From positions 1 through 61,763 of the forward strand of contig CAMCXM010000004.1 in the NCBI GenBank assembly GCA_945883425.1: a stretch of 61,763 bases of DNA, given 5' to 3'. The notes under the pieces are model-generated. The model saw nothing but the letters and a program-made list of their open reading frames with translations. It had not been told where the DNA came from and searched no databases. Source of the DNA: Spirosoma fluviale. Its GTDB lineage: Bacteria; Bacteroidota; Bacteroidia; Cytophagales; Flexibacteraceae. Below, piece after piece: positions 2,062 to 13,674 of the stretch. Position 1 is the first letter of the stretch; each line of letters begins with the position of its first letter. A program made the translations under genes and the position numbers.

Positions 2062-5000
2062 ATGCAACTAAGTAAACTGGAAATCAAAGGCTTCAAAAGC
2101 TTTGGTGATAAGATTACCATTCATTTTGATAAAGGTGTGACCGGCATTGTCGGTCCGAATGGTTGCGGAAAATCCAATGTTGTCGACGCCATCCGCTGGG
2201 TTTTGGGTGAACAGAAAACCCGGAACCTCCGCTCCGACAAAATGGAAAACCTCATTTTCAACGGCACCCGGACGCGAAAACCGTTGCAAATGGCAGAAGT
2301 GAGCCTCACATTTCTGAACACGAAAAACATTCTCCCAACCGATTATACATCGGTTACCATCTCCCGCCGCTACTACCGGGATGGCGACAGCGAATATCTT
2401 CTCAATGGCGTTACCTGCCGCCTCAAAGACATCACAAGCCTTTTCCTGGATACCGGTATCGGACCCGATAGTTATGCCATCATTGAATTAAAAATGGTGG
2501 ACGATATTTTGTCGGACAGGGAAAACAGTCGTCGTGCCTTGCTCGAAGAGGCCGCCGGTATTTCGAAATTTAAGATCCGGAAGAAGGAAACCTTCCGGAA
2601 ACTGGAGGATACAGAAGGCGATCTGACCCGTCTGGAAGATGTGCTGTTCGAAATACGGAAGAACATGAAAGCCCTTGAAAAACAGGCACGGCAGGCAGAA
2701 GAATATTACCAGATTAAGGAAAACTACCGACAGGCGGCCATTGAACATGGTCGCTTCAGTATGGCTTCGAAAGCCGAGGTACTCAATGATCTGAAAAAAA
2801 GGATAGGGGAGAGCCAGAATCTTCGTTCCGAATTTTCGGCTAAGATTGCCACACAGGAATCAGAACTGGAGAAGATCAAGTCCGATTTATTGCAGGAAGA
2901 AAAGACGCTTTCATCCAGACAAAAGACACTGAATGAGTACGTATCCAAAATACGGGAGATTGAAAGTCAGAAAAAGATCCGGGAAGACCGCCACAGTTTT
3001 TATACAGAACGGTTAGGAAAGCTCCACGGGGAAATCAGCCAGATTGGAGATCAAAAGAATTCAGTTGAAAAGACGCTTTCTCAAGCTCAAAAAACAAAAG
3101 AATCGGAAGAACAGAAACAGTCAGAAATAAAGCTGGATCTGGAAGAGGCCCAGGAAATTCTGGCTTCCGCCAAAGAGGATTCAGAGCGTATGAGGGCTCA
3201 GTTGGATGTGGCGAAAGAACTGCTTCAGCAAAAGCAACAGGAACTATACCAGACAGAAAAAACACTGGAGTTTTCCGAAACGCAACGAGCCGATCTGGAA
3301 AACGAATTGAAAAAAGCACTCGTCGCAACAGAAGATCAAACGGTTTTCCTCGAAAACTTCGAAAAGAAACTGGCAGCCATTTCCATCACAGCAACGGAAA
3401 AGTCTGCGCAAATTCTGGATCTGGAAAAAAAAGAAATTAAACTGAATCTTTCCATTGAAGCAAACATTACAGATGGAGAGAATATAAAAACACAACTGGC
3501 GGATTACTACAGAAAACTTGATGCCAAGCAAAATGAATTCAACCTGATTAAAGCCATGGTTGAAAATCTGGAAGGATTTCCGGAGGCGGTTAAGTTTTTG
3601 AGGAAAAATAAATCATGGAGTAAGAAAGCTCCACTCGTTACAGACATAATCAACATTGATGAAAAGTATAAAATGGCACTGGAATCTGTGCTTGAGCCAT
3701 TTTTGAATCATTATGTTGTCCAGTCTGAAACAGAGGCATATCTGGCAATGAAGCTTTTGTCGGAAAACCATAAAGGGAAAAGCAGTTTTCTTATTCTGGA
3801 CAGGCTTCAGGCATATCAATCGAAAGAACCAGAGGAACTGGAGGATGCTTTGCCTGCCATTTCATTGGTTGAATACGATCCTGTTTATGAAAAGCTGGTT
3901 TCATACCTGTTAGACGATATTTATATCACAAACAAAACGATTCCATTCACTGCAGCTGCATCAACAGAAACGCCGGTTCTGTTTGGTGAATTGTCGTGGG
4001 ATTGGTCGCAACACACAGTGGTTTCCATATCGGGAGCCATGACAAAACGAAGGTTCAGTCTTTCGGGTGGATCAACTTCTGTTTTGGAAGGAAATAAAAT
4101 CGGAAAAGCTCTTCAGTTGAAAAAGCTGGAAACCGAAATTTCCGACCTTAACATACTGATTCACAACGAGAAAATCAATCTCGAGCAAAATCAGGAGACG
4201 GTCGTTCAGCTGCGTCAAAGCACCGGAAAAAGTCTGATCGACCATCTTCAGAAAGAAGTGAACCAGCTCCGTCAGGAAGAAGCAGCATTGGTAGCACGGA
4301 AAGAACAATCGCTTGAATTGTTAAATAGTTCCGCTGCCAGAAAGGACGACATCGCACGGAAAATTGCGCAACTGTCTGAGGTTTTTGAAACACAAACTCC
4401 CGTCCTTGAAAAAATCAGGCTCCACGTGGAACAGTTGAATCTGGAGATTGAACAAAACCAAATAGCCTGGAAGAAAAAATCAGAAGAAACGACGATGGCT
4501 TCTGGCAAGTTCAATCAGTTGAACATTCTGGCGATTCAACTGCAAAACAGTTTAATCTCTACGCAGAAAGAAATCGATTTCAGAACAAATGAAATCAACC
4601 AACTGGAGAGCCGCCTGGAACAAGCAAAACAGGAAAAAGAAACCGTTACAAAAGAGTTGAGCCAACTTTCGGTAGGAGACGAGTCCGCCAATCTAGAACT
4701 CCCTGGCCTGTATGAAGAAAAGAAACTCATAGAGGACGGCCTCAATGAAGCGGAGAGAACCTATTTCGAGGCCAGAGGGGGCATCGAAAGCCGGGAAAAA
4801 GAAATTCGGGAATACAGTCGAAAACGGGAACAAATTGCTGTGCTCATCAGCGAATGCCAGGAAGCACTGAATTCGGGACAAGCACAAATGATCGCGATTC
4901 AGGAAAGACTGAATATCGAATTTGAGACCATGATCAGTTGGGAGGAAGGATTACCAGAACCCAATGCAAAAGAGGAAGAAACCTGGAGACAAAAAGCGCA

Positions 5001-5631
5001 ATCGGTTCGCAATCAGCTTGACCGAATGGGACCCATCAATCTGATGGCCAGAGAAGCCTATCAGGAAATAAAGGAACGGCACGATTTTATAGAGGCACAA
5101 AAGAAAGATCTTCTGGAGGCAAAAGAATCGCTTGCCAAAACAATAACAGAGATTGAAACAGTAGCCAGAGAACACTTCAGTCAAACCTTTCAGAAGGTTC
5201 AGGAGAATTTCAAACTGGTGTTCCGATCTTTGTTTACAGAAGAAGACACCTGTGAATTGGTCTTGCACGATCCATCCCAACCGTTGGAAAGTGCCATCGA
5301 CATCATGGCACGACCGAAAGGAAAGCGACCATTGACAATCAACCAGCTATCGGGAGGAGAAAAGACATTGACCGCGATATCTCTTCTGTTTGCCATTTAT
5401 CTGATTAAGCCGGCACCTTTCTGTATTTTCGATGAAGCCGATGCACCGCTGGACGATACCAACATTGACAAATTCAATAAAATCATCCGGAAATTTTCGG
5501 ATGAAAGCCAATTCATTATCGTGACCCACAACAAACGAACGATGGCCAGCACAGATGTTATTTATGGTGTAACCATGCCTGAACAAGGTGTAAGCCGGGT
5601 AATTCCGGTTGATCTAAGAGAATTGGCATGA
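2062..5631 (+). CDS. smc: Chromosome segregation protein SMC
   Basis: A full-length 1189-residue SMC ATPase. The N-terminal head has Walker A GPNGCGKSN at residues 31-39. Two long coiled coils (about 170-500 and 665-1010) flank a hinge at about 510-650. The C-terminal head has the ABC signature LSGGEKT and the Walker B stretch FCIFDEADAPLDD. SMC is loaded at parS by ParB and compacts and segregates newly replicated origins. Its neighbours fit this: a parS-like site lies 47 bases after its stop and a candidate oriC about 6 kb further on. The ATG has no obvious Shine-Dalgarno site, usual in this phylum. scpA and scpB are not in the window. Confidence 0.97.
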   Translation: MQLSKLEIKGFKSFGDKITIHFDKGVTGIVGPNGCGKSNVVDAIRWVLGEQKTRNLRSDKMENLIFNGTRTRKPLQMAEVSLTFLNTKNILPTDYTSVTISRRYYRDGDSEYLLNGVTCRLKDITSLFLDTGIGPDSYAIIELKMVDDILSDRENSRRALLEEAAGISKFKIRKKETFRKLEDTEGDLTRLEDVLFEIRKNMKALEKQARQAEEYYQIKENYRQAAIEHGRFSMASKAEVLNDLKKRIGESQNLRSEFSAKIATQESELEKIKSDLLQEEKTLSSRQKTLNEYVSKIREIESQKKIREDRHSFYTERLGKLHGEISQIGDQKNSVEKTLSQAQKTKESEEQKQSEIKLDLEEAQEILASAKEDSERMRAQLDVAKELLQQKQQELYQTEKTLEFSETQRADLENELKKALVATEDQTVFLENFEKKLAAISITATEKSAQILDLEKKEIKLNLSIEANITDGENIKTQLADYYRKLDAKQNEFNLIKAMVENLEGFPEAVKFLRKNKSWSKKAPLVTDIINIDEKYKMALESVLEPFLNHYVVQSETEAYLAMKLLSENHKGKSSFLILDRLQAYQSKEPEELEDALPAISLVEYDPVYEKLVSYLLDDIYITNKTIPFTAAASTETPVLFGELSWDWSQHTVVSISGAMTKRRFSLSGGSTSVLEGNKIGKALQLKKLETEISDLNILIHNEKINLEQNQETVVQLRQSTGKSLIDHLQKEVNQLRQEEAALVARKEQSLELLNSSAARKDDIARKIAQLSEVFETQTPVLEKIRLHVEQLNLEIEQNQIAWKKKSEETTMASGKFNQLNILAIQLQNSLISTQKEIDFRTNEINQLESRLEQAKQEKETVTKELSQLSVGDESANLELPGLYEEKKLIEDGLNEAERTYFEARGGIESREKEIREYSRKREQIAVLISECQEALNSGQAQMIAIQERLNIEFETMISWEEGLPEPNAKEEETWRQKAQSVRNQLDRMGPINLMAREAYQEIKERHDFIEAQKKDLLEAKESLAKTITEIETVAREHFSQTFQKVQENFKLVFRSLFTEEDTCELVLHDPSQPLESAIDIMARPKGKRPLTINQLSGGEKTLTAISLLFAIYLIKPAPFCIFDEADAPLDDTNIDKFNKIIRKFSDESQFIIVTHNKRTMASTDVIYGVTMPEQGVSRVIPVDLRELA
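4418..4433. promoter_or_regulatory. Possible second parS-like site inside smc
   Basis: GGCTCCACGTGGAACA lies within the smc coding sequence. It keeps the CACGTG core and the AACA arm, with three mismatches to the bacterial parS consensus TGTTnCACGTGAAACA. It could be a weaker ParB site, or chance given that it sits in coding sequence. Confidence 0.3.
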
Positions 5632-5677: not shown

Positions 5678-5693
5678 TGTTCCACGTGAAACT
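5678..5693. promoter_or_regulatory. parS centromere-like site
   Basis: TGTTCCACGTGAAACT matches the widely conserved ParB-binding consensus TGTTnCACGTGAAACA at every fixed position except the last base. It lies in the 74-base gap between smc and mnmG. parS sites cluster near oriC in most bacteria, and mnmG (gidA) is a classic origin-proximal gene. This is a sequence match; ParB binding is inferred. Confidence 0.8.
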
Positions 5694-5705: not shown

Positions 5706-7577
5706 ATGTTTTCAACATACGATGTATTGGTAGCAGGGGCAGGGCATGCCGGATGTGAAGCAGCAGCAGCAGCAGCCAACATGGGATCAAAAGTTCTTTT
5801 GGTTACCATGAACATGACAACCATCGGACAGATGAGTTGCAATCCTGCCATGGGCGGTGTGGCCAAAGGTCAGATTGTTCGGGAGGTAGATGCACTTGGT
5901 GGTCTGTCAGGAATCATATCCGATAAAACAACCATCCAGTTTCGGATGCTAAATCGCTCCAAAGGTCCTGCCATGTGGAGCCCAAGAGCACAAAACGACC
6001 GATGGCGATTTGCTGAAGAATGGCGACTCCATCTGGAAGCCATTCCAAATGTGGATTTCCTGCAGGACACCGTCGTCAGCCTTATCGTGAAAGACGACCG
6101 TGTGATTGGCGTAAAAACACAACTGGGATACGAAATCCATGCAAAATCGGTTGTTCTGACAAACGGGACATTCCTGAATGGACTCATTCATATTGGAGAA
6201 AAGCAACTAAGCGGAGGACGGATCTCCGAGTCATCCGCAACGGGAATCACTGCCCAGCTCGTCGAACTTGGATTCAATACAGGAAGAATGAAGACTGGAA
6301 CTCCACCCAGAATAGACGGACGGAGTCTCGACTATTCCAAAATGGATGAACAACCGGGAGACGAGAATCCTTCCAAGTTCTCATTTTCGGACGAAACAAA
6401 AGCCGTTGAAAACCAGAGAAGTTGCTGGATTACCTATACCAACGACAAAGTCCATTCCGTTCTGGAAAAAGGATTCAGCCAGAGTCCGATGTTTACAGGA
6501 CGGATACAGGGACTTGGTCCACGATACTGTCCATCCATCGAAGATAAAATCACACGATTCGCAGATAAGGACCGGCATCAGATTTTCATTGAACCAGAAG
6601 GCTGGAACACCGTTGAAATTTATGTGAATGGCTTTTCGACGTCACTTCCATATGAGGTGCAGATGGAAGCCATGAAGCATATACCGGGTTTGGAAAACGC
6701 CAAAATATTCCGGCCGGGTTATGCCATTGAATACGATTATTTCCCACCCACTCAGTTGAAGCCAACGCTGGAAACTTATCTGGTTGAAAATCTGTATTTC
6801 GCCGGACAGATCAACGGAACAACCGGTTATGAAGAAGCCGCTTGTCAGGGACTGATGGCGGGTATCAATGCTCACCTGAAAGTGAAAGAGGAAAATCCTT
6901 TTGTGTTGAGCCGTTCCGAGGCTTACATCGGTGTTCTCATTGATGACCTCATCACAAAAGGAACCGAAGAACCATACCGCATGTTTACTTCCAGAGCAGA
7001 ATTCAGAACACTGCTGAGGCAAAACAATGCCGATGTGCGACTTACCGAAAAAGGAAGAAACATCGGTCTGGCCAGTGAACAACGTATGTCACGACTCCGT
7101 GAAAAATTGGAGAAAACGGCACAAACCTTGGAGCTCTGGAAAACACTGAAACTACCATTGGATGTGATCAATCCACTGCTTGAATCGAAAGGGACGCCAC
7201 TTTTAGTTGAGAAAGCCAGCATCGAAAACCTTCTGAAAAGACCACAGCTTGAAATCGCGGATTTTGAACCATTCTTTGACAAAATCAATCCGTACAATGC
7301 CGATGCTGAAATTTTGGAGGAGGCAGAGATCCAGATAAAATACAAACCTTATATCGAGAAAGAAAGTCAGATCGCCATTAAAGTGACCAACAGTGAAAAC
7401 AAATCACTTCGGAAAGACATAGATTTTAAATCGATCAAAACACTCTCCAACGAAGCCCGGGAAAAACTGACCCGGTTAAAACCAAAGACATTGGGAGAAG
7501 CCCGAAGAATAAGTGGCATCTCTCAATCTGATTTATCCATTTTACTTCTTTACGCTGTAACATCTGATGAAAACTGA
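5706..7577 (+). CDS. mnmG: tRNA uridine-5-carboxymethylaminomethyl(34) synthesis enzyme MnmG
   Basis: A 623-residue FAD protein of normal MnmG (GidA) length. The dinucleotide-binding motif GAGHAG is at residues 11-16, the GRMKTGTPPRIDGRS segment follows in the first third, and the PMFTGRIQGLGPRYCPSIEDK block and a C-terminal helical domain are all present. With MnmE it installs the cmnm5 modification on U34 of tRNAs reading NNA/NNG codons, using FAD, NADH, glycine and methylenetetrahydrofolate. Its last 11 bases overlap the next gene, implying co-transcription. A parS site sits just upstream, in keeping with its usual position near the origin. Confidence 0.97.
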   Translation: MFSTYDVLVAGAGHAGCEAAAAAANMGSKVLLVTMNMTTIGQMSCNPAMGGVAKGQIVREVDALGGLSGIISDKTTIQFRMLNRSKGPAMWSPRAQNDRWRFAEEWRLHLEAIPNVDFLQDTVVSLIVKDDRVIGVKTQLGYEIHAKSVVLTNGTFLNGLIHIGEKQLSGGRISESSATGITAQLVELGFNTGRMKTGTPPRIDGRSLDYSKMDEQPGDENPSKFSFSDETKAVENQRSCWITYTNDKVHSVLEKGFSQSPMFTGRIQGLGPRYCPSIEDKITRFADKDRHQIFIEPEGWNTVEIYVNGFSTSLPYEVQMEAMKHIPGLENAKIFRPGYAIEYDYFPPTQLKPTLETYLVENLYFAGQINGTTGYEEAACQGLMAGINAHLKVKEENPFVLSRSEAYIGVLIDDLITKGTEEPYRMFTSRAEFRTLLRQNNADVRLTEKGRNIGLASEQRMSRLREKLEKTAQTLELWKTLKLPLDVINPLLESKGTPLLVEKASIENLLKRPQLEIADFEPFFDKINPYNADAEILEEAEIQIKYKPYIEKESQIAIKVTNSENKSLRKDIDFKSIKTLSNEAREKLTRLKPKTLGEARRISGISQSDLSILLLYAVTSDEN

Positions 7578-8454
7578 AATTCTTGAATCCTGTCCATCCT
7601 GCGGTTCAGCCAACATACAACACCTGGTCAATGTACCAGATCACTATTACAGCAAAGAAGTTTTTCCCGTTTTTGAATGCAAGGATTGTACATTACGATT
7701 CACACAAAACCGACCCACACAAAGTGAAATCGGACGGTATTATGATTCGGAAAACTATGCCAGTCACGACTCCAAGAAGAAAGCCAGTCTTTTCCTGAAA
7801 GTCTATCAGGAGGCCAGAGACTGGATGCTGGGCCAAAAATTCAACCTGGTCCGCCAGTTTAAACCAGAGTGGAAAAAGGTGCTGGATTACGGAACCGGAG
7901 AAGGATTCTTTACCGAGTATCTGCTGAAACAAGGAAAAGAAGCAACCGGAATCGAACCATCGGAGGTGGCCCGCCAGAATTTTAAGGACAGAACAGGTAG
8001 GGAACTGTATGCGGACATTTCTCTGCTCCCAAACAATTCCACCTTTCATGTAATCACCCTCTGGCATGTATTGGAACATATCCACACCCTGCGGCAAACG
8101 ATGCAGGAACTCGTCAACCGCATTGACAGCAAGGGCATTATGGTGATTGCCGTACCCAACCAAAAATCCAGCGATGCAAAATCATTTGGAACCGAATGGG
8201 CAGCCTGGGATGTTCCCCGCCATTTATACCACTGGGATGAGCAATCGCTTGGACATTTTATGAAGAGTCTGGGGATGACACGCATTTATACGTCCCAACT
8301 ACCTCTGGATCCATTGTATATCGGAATGATCTCTGCTAAGTACCAGGGGAAAAGCTCCATTGGAGGAATCTTCACAGGGATTCAATCCTATTTGCATGGA
8401 CGACAAAATCCATCTGAAGGCTCAACGCTTCTCACGGTATGGATGAAAAACTAA
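7567..8454 (+). CDS. Class I SAM-dependent methyltransferase with N-terminal zinc-finger-like motif
   Basis: A 295-residue protein. Four cysteines as CxxC pairs (residues 9/12 and 38/41) form a probable zinc ribbon. The methyltransferase domain follows, with SAM motif I around residues 105-114 (VLDYGTGEGF) and the late motif WHVLEHI, as in the Methyltransf_23/UbiG-like group. The substrate cannot be read from the sequence. The start overlaps the end of mnmG by 11 bases and the end overlaps the next small gene by 16, so this is a tightly coupled operon. It could modify a lipid, a sugar or tRNA. Confidence 0.85.
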   Translation: MKTEILESCPSCGSANIQHLVNVPDHYYSKEVFPVFECKDCTLRFTQNRPTQSEIGRYYDSENYASHDSKKKASLFLKVYQEARDWMLGQKFNLVRQFKPEWKKVLDYGTGEGFFTEYLLKQGKEATGIEPSEVARQNFKDRTGRELYADISLLPNNSTFHVITLWHVLEHIHTLRQTMQELVNRIDSKGIMVIAVPNQKSSDAKSFGTEWAAWDVPRHLYHWDEQSLGHFMKSLGMTRIYTSQLPLDPLYIGMISAKYQGKSSIGGIFTGIQSYLHGRQNPSEGSTLLTVWMKN

Positions 8455-8615
8455 AACAGGATTCCAACCGGGTCTGGACAGAACTTGATTCCACACAAAC
8501 CAATACCAAAGCCTCATCAACGAAAACATCCGGAACCGATTGGATAAAAGGAACCGGTATTGTTCTTGGAGTCACTCTTATTCTGTTCGTTTTATTCAAC
8601 CTTCGAAGCAAATGA
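8439..8615 (+). CDS. Small single-pass membrane protein, 58 residues
   Basis: A short ORF from the ATG at 8439 to the TGA at 8613-8615. The first 34 residues are polar and Ser/Thr/Lys-rich; residues 36-55 form one hydrophobic helix (GIVLGVTLILFVLFNL) ending in a short basic tail. It overlaps the methyltransferase end by 16 bases, and its stop overlaps the start of the following lipoprotein (ATGATGA), the layout of a translationally coupled operon gene. I do not recognise a family. Length, topology and coupling support it being real; homologs would settle it. Confidence 0.55.
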   Translation: MDEKLKQDSNRVWTELDSTQTNTKASSTKTSGTDWIKGTGIVLGVTLILFVLFNLRSK

Positions 8616-10093
8616 TGAAATACCTGTCTGTTGTGGTTCTGTTTCTGGTGAACGCCTGTGCCAGTGTCAAAGCCCCGGATGGTGGTCCAAAGGACTCTGC
8701 TGCTCCGAAACTGAGCCAAACCAATCCCGGACAAAACGCCACTGATTTTAAGGCAAAAGCGATTGTGCTGGAATTTTCAGAAGATGTGGTGGAGAACAAC
8801 TCCAAAGTTCAGTTTCTCTCACCACTGACAAGTGTAACCACCAATCCACTTGGAAAGAGATTAAAAATTACCGCCGATTCCGGCTGGAAACCCAATACAA
8901 CATACGTTCTCAACCTCCGGAAAAAGATCAAAGACGAAAGAGAAGGCAACCCGTTAAAAGACACAACCATTATCTTTTCAACGGGTCAGGTTCTGGATAC
9001 AATCTCAGCTTCCATTCAGATCGTCAACAAATCAAACAAAACAAGTGCCGCTAAGTATACGGCCCTTTTCCACAACCAAAACACCTATGCCGGAACAACC
9101 GACAGTTTAAAACCTTTGCTGATAGAAGGACTTGCCTCCAGAAAATATCTGGTCGAAGTTTTCACCGATAAAAACGACAACTACCAATATGACGAAGAAG
9201 ATGGAATGCTATTTAGCGACAGCATCCGGATGGATTCATCTATTAATCTGATCGTCAAACCTTTACCTCAGAAATTTAAACCGACAAAGATCTTCAAACA
9301 GCGGAAAGGCGATACGCTGATGATTGAAAGTACACAACGGATCGAAGCGGACGAACGATTCAATCGATTCACAATCGCCGACAACGAAGAGAAAACCTTG
9401 TTCTGGCTCTACCCGGTGACATCCGATTTTGAATACTCCTTTTCGGATACACTTCGAAACTGTTATCAGGATACCATCTCTTTGCTCTCGATCGACTCCA
9501 CCCGTAGTTTGACAAACATTCCGCTGAAACGGGAAGTCATAATCAGTCGGAACAAAAAAGAAACCAATGTACAGTTTCAATGGAACTGGCAGATCAGGCA
9601 ATTCCCGACTCTACTTGAGATAACCCAGGATTCCATCTGGAAACAAGTGATTCCTGAAAAAGAAAAGACAGGTTTTACACTGAGAATCAACGATGTAAAA
9701 ACAGGAAGACTCAAAATCCGTTTCGATACCCTTCAGTTCATGAACCAAATGGGGATTCGAAAAGACTCCATCGATATCACCAAGGGTGACCTCGAATCGT
9801 TTGGGATGGTATCGGGAAAACTGGATACCAAAGATGTGGGTGGCTACCAGATTGAACTCATCAACAGTGCGAAAAAAACGGAAGCAACCGGATCTGGCAG
9901 CGCATTTCAATTCTTCGTCAGACCCGGAAAATATACGCTTCAGGTTTTCAAAGATCTGGATGGAGACGGACAGTACACGGGCGGAAACAAAAAGGCCCGG
10001 CGACAAGCCGAGCCTCTGTATATTGTGCCGGAACCCATCGAACTGAAACCAGGATGGGATCTGGAAAATATTGTTGTAAGACCTGATTTCTAG
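8612..10093 (+). CDS. Ig-like domain-containing lipoprotein
   Basis: A lipoprotein of about 493 residues. The start is set at the tandem ATG at 8612-8617, giving a clean type II signal peptide ([16 protein letters not shown]) with lipobox VNAC; an upstream in-frame ATG at 8540 lies inside the preceding small gene and would spoil it. The mature protein begins with APDGGPKD and a Big_5-type bacterial Ig-like domain (about residues 25-125, with VLEFSEDV and TTYVLNL), the typical start of a widespread Bacteroidota lipoprotein family. The rest looks beta-rich, including an acidic [13 protein letters not shown] loop that may bind calcium. Role unknown; probably an envelope-anchored surface or periplasmic protein. 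It converges with fumC, sharing CTAG. Confidence 0.85.
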
Positions 10094-11481
10094 CCAGCCG
10101 AAACCATATCCTCCGGACGAACCCAAAGATCGAATTCTTCTGAGGTAACATAGCCCAGCGCCATCGCTGACTCTTTCAAGGTCAGATTCTCCTTATGCGC
10201 TTTCTTCGCGATCTCAGCTGCCTTGTAGTAACCAATGTGGGTATTTAAGGATGTCACCAGCATCAGTGAATTCTGCAAGTGCTTTTGAATCGACATATGA
10301 TTCGGTTCAATTCCTTCCACACAATGCTTACGGAACGAATCGCAGGCATCGGCCAGCAGATTGGCTGCCATCAGGAAGTTAAAAATGATCACCGGCTTAA
10401 ACACATTCAACTCGAAGTGTCCATTCATTCCCCCAACTGAAATCGCCGCATCGTTACCAATCACCTGTGCACAAACCATGGTCAATGCTTCTGACTGAGT
10501 TGGATTGACCTTTCCTGGCATGATGGATGAACCCGGCTCATTCTCGGGAATCAGAATTTCGCCAATACCAGAACGAGGACCGGAAGCCAGTAAACGAATG
10601 TCATTGGCAATTTTCATTAACGAAACCGCCAGTGTTTTTAAGGCTCCCGAAGCGAAAACCTGTGCATCATGAGCTGCGAGAGATTCAAATTTATTAGGCG
10701 CTGTAATGAACGAGTGACCCGTGAGTTCTGAAATCTTTTGAGCAACCAGAACATCGTACCCCTTTGGTGCATTGAGTCCGGTACCAACGGCTGTTCCGCC
10801 CAAGGCAAGTTCCGAAAGGTGAGAAATGGATTGTTCAATGTGACGAATTCCGTGTGTAAGCTGAGCCGTATACCCCGAAAATTCCTGACCGAGCGTTAAC
10901 GGAGTGGCATCCATCAAATGGGTCCTTCCAATTTTTACGACTGACTGAAATGCTTCTGCTTTTTGCGCAAACACATCCCGAAGTTGGGTAACCATTGGAA
11001 TCACTTTCTCTTTCAACACCTTAACGGCTGCAATGCTCATAGCGGTAGGGAAGGTATCGTTGGATGACTGAGACTTATTCACATCGTCGTTCGGATGCAG
11101 GACTTTCTTTTCATCCAACAGATTTCCCCCTTGTAAAACATGTCCACGATTTGCGACCACTTCATTCAGATTCATGTTAGATTGCGTACCGGAACCGGTT
11201 TGCCAGACAACCAGAGGAAACTGATCATTTAATGAACCTGCCAGAATTTCATCGCATACCTTACCAATCAAATCTGATTTCTCTTTTGGAAGAACACCCA
11301 GATCCATATTGGCCAGGGCGGCTGCCTTTTTCAAATAGGCAAACGCATGGATTATTTCCATCGGCATGGTGTGTCCTCCTATCTGAAAATTCTCTCTTGA
11401 ACGCTGTGTCTGCGCACCCCAATACGCCTGAGCCGGTACTTTTACCTCGCCCATGGTATCTTTCTCTATCCGATATTCCAT
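10090..11481 (-). CDS. fumC: Class II fumarate hydratase
   Basis: A 463-residue fumarase C of the usual length. It interconverts fumarate and L-malate in the TCA cycle. The superfamily signature [11 protein letters not shown] is at residues 317-327 and includes the catalytic Ser318. The second catalytic region [10 protein letters not shown], with His188, and the substrate-binding [10 protein letters not shown] segment are also present. The GSSxMPxKxNP loop and length match fumarase rather than aspartase, although the two are related. Its promoter side faces the candidate replication origin. Confidence 0.96.
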
Positions 11482-11850
11482 TGATTTTAAGAAACTTAAC
11501 TTTTTATACTTTGTTCACAAAACTGTTGACAAGTCTAAGACAGAATGTGGATAAAGTACAAGCTATCCACAAAAAGAATCTGACCCCACAGGTTTCATCC
11601 ACATTCTTCCAACTTATTCACATTTGATCCAGTGACCGTGCACAGTTCCACAAATGACCGTTTCCGGTTTAACAAAATCAATAAACTCTTAGTTTTCCAG
11701 TTACCAAAAGCCGCCACTTAAAGTGATTCTTTAATTATCCACAAAACTTATCCACATATCCACACCCCTAACAATAGAAACAATAAATATTTAAATATTT
11801 GTACATTAATATAGACGTGTGGAGAATGTGGAAAACACGAAATTGAAAAA
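11482..11850. other. oriC: Candidate chromosomal replication origin (oriC): DnaA-box cluster
   Basis: No gene lies here. Perfect DnaA boxes (TTATCCACA or its complement) are at 11546-11554 (minus), 11735-11743 (plus) and 11748-11756 (plus); TTATTCACA at 11614-11622 matches TTATnCACA. One-mismatch boxes are at 11563-11571, 11595-11603, 11756-11764, 11818-11826 (minus) and 11827-11835 (minus). That is nine boxes in about 290 bases, arranged around an AT-rich tract (11769-11814). Density, a putative unwinding element, the nearby parS and the smc/mnmG neighbourhood together support oriC. dnaA is not in the window, which is common outside classical dnaA-linked origins. A heavily DnaA-regulated promoter is the alternative. 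Confidence 0.75.
11765..11814 (+). other. Putative DNA unwinding element with DnaA-trio-like array
   Basis: The plus-strand box ATATCCACA (11756-11764) is followed directly by CCCC and then six consecutive triplets with a central A (TAA CAA TAG AAA CAA TAA, 11769-11786). After that comes an almost pure A/T stretch to about 11814. Box, short GC spacer and DnaA-trio is the basal unwinding layout described for bacterial origins; four of the six triplets fit the stricter consensus. Functional assignment is inference. Confidence 0.5.
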
Positions 11851-11865
11851 ATGAAAAGGAGCGAA

Positions 11866-13674
11866 ATGAAAAACGGAATTCTCATCCTCATACTGGCGTT
11901 GATTCAAACCATTGCTTTCGGGCAAACAAAATCTGAAAAGAAAGAGCTGGCGGATGAATACCTGAAACGGGAGAATTATCAAAAGGCATTGGACAATTAC
12001 GAGGACCTGGCAGGAGATGAAGCCTGGGATCCTTTGATTTTCAAAAACTATATTCTATGTCTTGATAAACTCAAGCCAACCAAATCGGAATCCGTCATCA
12101 AAAAATATCTGAAGCGTTATCCACAGGAGATGATGTACCAGACATTTCAGTTTACCTGGTTGAAGAATGTAAAAAAGGACGAAAAGGATTTTCAGAAATA
12201 TACCCGCTCAAAATTGATCCCCTGGTTTTTGCAGACCAGCGAACGGACCCGCTTCGGGTATTCCTTTTTCCTGCAGAACCAGAATCCCGAATTTGCTGCC
12301 GTTATACTGGATGACGGAATCAAACAGTTTGGTTTATCTGCCATGTGGAAAGAAGTATTCCAGGCCCAGTTGGCAGAGAAAAAATACCCGCAGCTTTCGC
12401 AAACCATCATGCAGCTTCTGGATCAGAAGGTGCTGGATGAAAATGAGCTGGAGGCCTATCTGCAGGAACACATCGCCATTGACGAACTGGCCCGTTTGCT
12501 GCAGATCGAATTGTTAAAGAGCATTCAACTAAAACCATCTGCGATTGTGTACCCTTCCTTTCTGGGATGGATTTATGTACAGAAGAAAGACTTTGATGGA
12601 GCCCTCATTCAGTACAGAGCCCTTGACCTTTTGCAGAATACAGGCGGAACCCGCTGCTATCAATTGGGTGAATTTGCGGTGAACAATGATCTGATTCCAC
12701 TGGCGATCAAGAGTTTTGAATTTGTGATCAACAGCTTTCCGGCCAGTCAGTATCGCTTTCTGGCGCAACAAAAGATAGTTCAATTGCGGGAAGACCGGGT
12801 TCGGAATACGTATCCGGTGAAAACGGAAGAAGTGAGGGCCCTCATTGCCGAATACAACAACCTGGCGCAAAGTCAGTACCTCAACCTTTATGATCTCAAT
12901 ATGAAAGTAGCGGAGCTGTACGGAAAGTATCTCAACCGGCCCGATTCCGCGATTTTCATTCTGGAAGAAAGTATGAAGACCCGACGATGGCCTTCCATTT
13001 TTCAGAACAAAGCTAAAATCCTATTGGGCGATATGTACATTCTCAAAGACGAACCCTGGGAAGCCAGTCTGTTATACGGACAGGCGGAAAAGGATGAAGC
13101 CGAAAGTCTGGTCGGGTATGAGGCCAAGCTGAAAAATGCGAAAGTGTTTTATTTCAAAGGAGAGTTTGAGCTCTGCCAGGAGCAGCTCGATGTTCTCAAG
13201 CAAAGCACCAGCCGCGACATCAGCAACGATGCCATCGAGTTGGGCTTGCTCCTTCAGGACCTTCTTGCGGAGGACACCACGGGTTATTTCCTGTCCAAAT
13301 TCGCCGATATTGACCTGCTTACCTTCCAGGGAAATTACCCGGCCGCGATAGACCAGATCGAAAAGCTGACATTGACCATTTCAAACCCGGTTGTTTTGGA
13401 AAAACTCAAGTACCGTTTGTTCACCAATTTTTACGCGACCCGTCAGTTTGAAAAGTCGCTGGAGCAGCTCGATCAGATTTACAAAGCCAAGGCATCGGAT
13501 TTGTATCTGGACGATGCCCTGTTTAACAGCGGCGTCATTTATTCCGATCAGTTGAAGGATAAGGAAAAAGCGATGGGGTTCTTTCTGTCACTCATCAAAG
13601 AACATCCGGGTTCGGTGTATGTGGCCGAATCGAGAAAGCGACTTCGGATTTTGAGGGGGGATAGTGCCAATTGA
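11866..13674 (+). CDS. TPR-repeat secreted protein
   Basis: About 602 residues. The ATG at 11866 is preferred: it has AAGGAG four bases upstream and gives a clean signal peptide (MKNGILILILALIQTIAFGQ); an in-frame ATG at 11851 adds five polar residues. The mature protein is helical with repeated tetratricopeptide-like units (for example residues 20-55, 375-460 and 510-590, with YQKALDNYEDLA and DDALFNSGVIYSDQLKDKEKA). TPR proteins scaffold complexes; here it is probably periplasmic. No enzymatic domain is visible. Its promoter must lie within or beside the DnaA-box region, so transcription and origin activity could interact. Confidence 0.85.
   Translation: MKNGILILILALIQTIAFGQTKSEKKELADEYLKRENYQKALDNYEDLAGDEAWDPLIFKNYILCLDKLKPTKSESVIKKYLKRYPQEMMYQTFQFTWLKNVKKDEKDFQKYTRSKLIPWFLQTSERTRFGYSFFLQNQNPEFAAVILDDGIKQFGLSAMWKEVFQAQLAEKKYPQLSQTIMQLLDQKVLDENELEAYLQEHIAIDELARLLQIELLKSIQLKPSAIVYPSFLGWIYVQKKDFDGALIQYRALDLLQNTGGTRCYQLGEFAVNNDLIPLAIKSFEFVINSFPASQYRFLAQQKIVQLREDRVRNTYPVKTEEVRALIAEYNNLAQSQYLNLYDLNMKVAELYGKYLNRPDSAIFILEESMKTRRWPSIFQNKAKILLGDMYILKDEPWEASLLYGQAEKDEAESLVGYEAKLKNAKVFYFKGEFELCQEQLDVLKQSTSRDISNDAIELGLLLQDLLAEDTTGYFLSKFADIDLLTFQGNYPAAIDQIEKLTLTISNPVVLEKLKYRLFTNFYATRQFEKSLEQLDQIYKAKASDLYLDDALFNSGVIYSDQLKDKEKAMGFFLSLIKEHPGSVYVAESRKRLRILRGDSAN

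Follow-up and report, generated by a model that had tools for sequence, protein, structure and literature searches.

A candidate chromosomal replication origin remote from dnaA, between fumC and a TPR gene, in a Cytophagales draft genome

The window analyzed here, 61,763 nucleotides in length, is an entire contig of a 228-contig, 3.75-Mb draft genome. Near its left end lies smc (2062-5631, forward strand; TIGR02168, 987 bits), followed by mnmG, also called gidA (5706-7577, forward strand; TIGR00136, 829.8 bits), and a parS-like palindrome, GTTCCACGTGAAAC, occupies positions 5679-5692 between the two genes. mnmG is a conserved neighbor of the origin predicted below and stands in conserved synteny with the next two genes, which form the conserved left flank: one for a SAM methyltransferase (MTase; 7567-8454, forward strand; PF13489) and one for a protein with an Ig-like Big_5 domain (8540-10093, forward strand; PF13205). 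Next comes fumC (10090-11481, reverse strand; TIGR00979), which among the loci seen adjoins the TPR gene only in four congeneric genomes. The TPR gene itself (11851-13674, forward strand), encoding a 607-amino-acid protein with TPR Pfam hits, is the conserved right neighbor, with orthologues in 36 of 39 relatives. The first-pass annotation had placed smc, mnmG and parS near a probable origin of replication; profile hidden Markov models confirmed these genes, as well as fumC and the TPR gene, and the palindrome lies ~6 kb from the predicted oriC. Five relatives (G001, G003, G004, G014 and G018) likewise have parS 4 to 6 kb from the gap, with one or two such sites per genome 4 to 8 kb from the predicted origin.

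The fumC-TPR intergenic gap (11482-11850), the predicted oriC, carries nine DnaA boxes within 290 bp, spanning 11546 to 11835. Four of them match TTATNCACA: three are perfect copies of TTATCCACA, at 11546-11554 (reverse strand), 11735-11743 (forward) and 11748-11756 (forward), and the fourth is TTATTCACA at 11614-11622 (forward). The other five differ by one mismatch: CTATCCACA at 11563-11571, TCATCCACA at 11595-11603 and ATATCCACA at 11756-11764, all on the forward strand, and TTCTCCACA at 11818-11826 and TTTTCCACA at 11827-11835, both on the reverse strand. This recount agreed exactly with the four matching boxes, three of them perfect, and five one-mismatch boxes within about 290 bases that had been described from the sequence. 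Shuffling the whole window gave 13.5 boxes with at most one mismatch per 61.8 kb, or 0.06 per 290 bp against the nine observed. AT-rich intergenic DNA could in principle throw up a cluster of box-like words by chance, and the AT-richness of the gap, but nothing further, speaks for this. Shuffles of the gap itself, however, gave an expectation of 0.14 boxes and a maximum of 2 in 2000 trials, and the cluster is conserved across genera; these findings refute chance clustering, which we regard as having a negligible probability. The 3.75-Mb genome contains 50 perfect boxes in all, and a genome-wide scan found at least three perfect boxes within 250 bp only in the fumC-TPR gap and in a second cluster, near dnaA.

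The right-hand part of the gap has the layout of an unwinding region. The perfect box at 11748 and the one-mismatch box at 11756 overlap by one base to form a tandem pair, TTATCCACATATCCACA (11748-11764), the second member of which adjoins a CCCC spacer (11765-11768, forward strand) and then six DnaA-trio-like triplets, TAA CAA TAG AAA CAA TAA (11769-11786, forward strand), so that the triplets start 4 bp past the second tandem box and 12 bp past the first. No 50-mer of the window is less stable than the tract from 11767 to 11816, at -50.0 kcal/mol against a window mean of -67.9 (SD, 4.0), a deviation of ~4.5 SD; the boxes thus do adjoin an AT-rich tract, as first noted, and this tract would be the DNA unwinding element. 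In the basal unwinding system (BUS), a spacer of up to 16 bp separates a DnaA box from three or more NAN trios that follow it (PMC8287927), and the box, spacer and six NAN trios at 11769-11786 agree with that rule in sequence. As in the BUS of Bacillus subtilis and Helicobacter pylori (PMC8287927), tandem boxes are joined by a short GC-rich spacer, here of the typical 4 bases, to NAN triplets and an AT-rich unwinding site, and the distance from the better box to the first trio, 12 bp, falls inside the published peak of 10 to 13 bp (PMC8287927). The predicted element differs from those systems in that two of its six triplets are CAA and its boxes overlap by one base.

All relatives found belong to the Cytophagales. 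The same gap is present in all four congeneric genomes, each with six to eight boxes, three of them perfect. When the gap was aligned across the five genomes of the genus, conservation was highest over the 11546 box and over the boxes from 11735 to 11764 together with the trio and AT-rich tract that follow; the perfect boxes at 11546 and 11735 are kept in all five genomes, and the 11748 box is kept both in the genus and across the order. Boxes were then counted in bins around the TPR orthologue at 80 Cytophagales loci. Their density reached 6.42 per kb over the 500 bp that precede TPR, against 0.14 to 0.86 per kb in all other bins. Many of the box-free loci came from Pontibacter or other Hymenobacteraceae. 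The tandem pair occurs at most cluster-bearing Cytophagales loci, and TAA or TAG stands 3 to 5 nucleotides after the second tandem box at 28 of 35 tandem-box loci, compared with a shuffled mean of 10 and a maximum of 18, so that these triplets are enriched order-wide. The whole arrangement of tandem boxes, spacer, trios and least stable tract recurs across the order. The mnmG-TPR gap of G018, a genome with few canonical boxes, also contains a tandem pair followed by repeated CAA and TAA triplets. Separately, a locus from UBA2561 (L214) is an unusually box-rich predicted origin: TPR is at 805 there, 23 boxes fall within 700 bp on its upstream side, and 24 of the 27 boxes counted upstream are perfect.

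The cluster had been expected at the fumC-TPR junction in relatives. This held in all four congeners; the landmarks that hold beyond the genus proved to be mnmG-MTase-Big_5 to the left of the gap and TPR to its right. We found no boxes in the vicinity of fumC outside the genus, and fumC was rejected as a conserved landmark. Judged from the loci compared, fumC is a genus-level insertion into a conserved order that reads mnmG-MTase-Big_5-predicted oriC-TPR. Among loci with enough upstream sequence, 35 had both boxes and mnmG-MTase-Big_5 upstream, 35 had neither, and 2 were mixed (Fisher P = 1.5e-18, a value that overstates independence because the loci are related). The first-pass annotation had staked its reading on boxes being present in relatives with conserved synteny, and they were present in the four congeners and at nearly all mnmG-MTase-Big_5-TPR loci.

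DnaA also acts as a transcription factor, and the boxes sit in a divergent promoter gap, so the cluster could instead be a DnaA-controlled promoter of TPR or fumC, or a datA- or DARS-like titration or regulatory site. Rearranged genomes argue against the promoter form of this explanation. In G038, TPR lies ~36 kb off and a 15-box cluster remains beside Big_5-MTase-mnmG, and in G021, where TPR is ~39 kb away, two perfect boxes are found 5 kb beyond mnmG. Because the boxes stay with the mnmG flank in both genomes, the cluster is tied to the chromosomal site rather than to either promoter; moreover, other genera have no fumC in the gap, so the cluster tracks neither gene. A datA- or DARS-like site would consist of boxes without origin features, whereas the fumC-TPR locus combines its boxes with trio and unwinding anatomy, a nearby parS and, in one closed relative, a skew minimum (see below). 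We therefore consider a purely regulatory role highly improbable.

Not every relative conforms to the pattern. G030 carries an 18-box cluster with both the mnmG-side and the TPR neighbors absent nearby, and this cluster apparently represents a relocated origin. The locus (L089, positions 3016750-3017445 of contig C1 of G030) is the densest cluster seen, with 7 perfect boxes among its 18, and lies 0.28 Mb from mnmG, 1.80 Mb from TPR and 0.04 Mb from dnaA. In G013 and G032, TPR is at most ~2 kb from mnmG, and we found no recognizable TTATCCACA cluster in the 600 bp upstream of TPR (L077 and L075, respectively). The words TGAACA and TATTCA recur upstream of TPR at these two loci and may possibly represent a divergent DnaA box.

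GC skew gave a mixed picture. Within the 61.8-kb window of this 228-contig draft, cumulative GC skew is lowest at ~12 to 13 kb, and local skew changes from negative on the left of the cluster to positive on its right in the host genome, G001 and G003, although these are short stretches and constitute weak evidence. The clearest case is G037, a closed genome of one 7.03-Mb contig, for which skew was computed from 20-kb samples and one nearly contiguous 400-kb stretch rather than from the whole chromosome. Its skew is positive from 0 to 3 Mb, mostly negative from 3.1 to 6.6 Mb and positive beyond, and the cumulative minimum within the 400-kb stretch, at 6,640,985, is 16 kb from the orthologous TPR-side cluster (6,624,205-6,624,553). 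The sampled skew minimum of G014 lies ~1 Mb from the cluster, and neither G018 nor the near-complete G030 showed a clear pattern in its sampled skew, so that the relatives comprise one clear match, one displaced minimum and two cases without a clear pattern.

The first-pass annotation had also stated that dnaA is not adjacent, and indeed the gene maps to a different contig (C7:24281-25747). The second cluster, four perfect DnaA boxes packed into 59 bp (C7:22408-22466; L001:7409-7467), precedes it by ~1.8 kb and, like the trio and unwinding element, goes beyond what had been annotated. The true origin might be this cluster, with the fumC-TPR cluster as a secondary DnaA-binding site: its four perfect boxes are tightly packed, it lies near dnaA as origins do in many bacteria, and a similar three-box element stands upstream of dnaA in G003 and G004. 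However, we found neither trios nor an AT-rich tract after these boxes, and no element of this type in the dnaA flanks of other genera or of G001 and G002, in which the region was partly read. The dnaA gene of the closed G037 genome, at 0.92 Mb, is 1.3 Mb away from the skew minimum, and the cluster that is conserved order-wide is the one at fumC-TPR. An origin upstream of dnaA thus seems very unlikely, if somewhat less so than a purely regulatory role for the fumC-TPR cluster. We read the cluster near dnaA as a putative DnaA-binding control site, possibly one for titration or regulation.

Taken together, the conserved cluster, its synteny, the trio and unwinding anatomy, the nearby parS and the skew minimum of G037 support the original suggestion of a probable oriC, and we conclude that the region from 11482 to 11850 is very probably the chromosomal origin, of the ordinary DnaA type, of this Cytophagales bacterium. 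The displaced skew of G014, the skew of G018 and G030 with no clear pattern, the cluster near dnaA and the lack of a TTATCCACA cluster in G013 and G032 count against this conclusion. In the mechanism that we infer for this organism, DnaA made from the remote dnaA gene would bind the box cluster, and a DnaA filament would grow from the tandem pair at 11748-11764, pass over the CCCC spacer to the strand that carries the trios (11769-11786) and melt the adjoining AT-rich tract, to about 11816. DnaB would be loaded at the melted tract, and bidirectional forks would begin there, whereupon ParB bound to the mnmG-side parS would, with SMC, segregate the newly copied origins.

The origin itself is of a known kind, and Bacteroidetes origins remote from dnaA are already known; that oriC in this group is commonly far from dnaA was stated in a study of Prevotella intermedia (PMC4755523). 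The origin predicted by Ori-Finder/DoriC on chromosome I of P. intermedia OMA14, a species of another order, resembles the present one in having clustered DnaA boxes remote from dnaA; it lies where GC skew switches (PMC4755523), a position that the skew of G037 suggests for the present site. Ori-Finder uses gidA (mnmG) as one of its standard indicator genes (PMC2275245), and the Escherichia coli oriC, between gidA and mioC (PMC4446571, PMC2275245), is likewise near mnmG and not beside dnaA. Here, in contrast, mnmG is separated from the predicted oriC by the genes for MTase and Big_5 and, in this genus, by fumC as well, and TPR takes the place of mioC. Within the same order, oriC plasmids exist for Cytophaga hutchinsonii (Xu et al. 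2012, as cited in PMC5891637), in which a chromosomal oriC drives plasmid replication. We found no description of the mnmG-MTase-Big_5-oriC-TPR layout in the literature searched, most subscription journals and DoriC being outside the search.

It is possible, though on balance doubtful, that the Cytophagales inherited an origin module, mnmG-MTase-Big_5-oriC(BUS)-TPR, and that, in part of the genus, a compact group of DnaA boxes ahead of the distant dnaA gene additionally acts as a datA-like control site. If such a module was inherited, the orthologues of mnmG and TPR could jointly be used as indicator genes for oriC in draft genomes. The finding leaves the understanding of bacterial replication unchanged. 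What it offers is a specific origin prediction, open to test, in an uncultured freshwater genus for which proximity to dnaA would misplace the origin and the draft state of the genome rules out skew. In other Cytophagales drafts, the mnmG-MTase-Big_5 and TPR flanks would provide a practical marker of oriC, useful in read-depth estimates of growth rate and in the construction of replicating plasmids.
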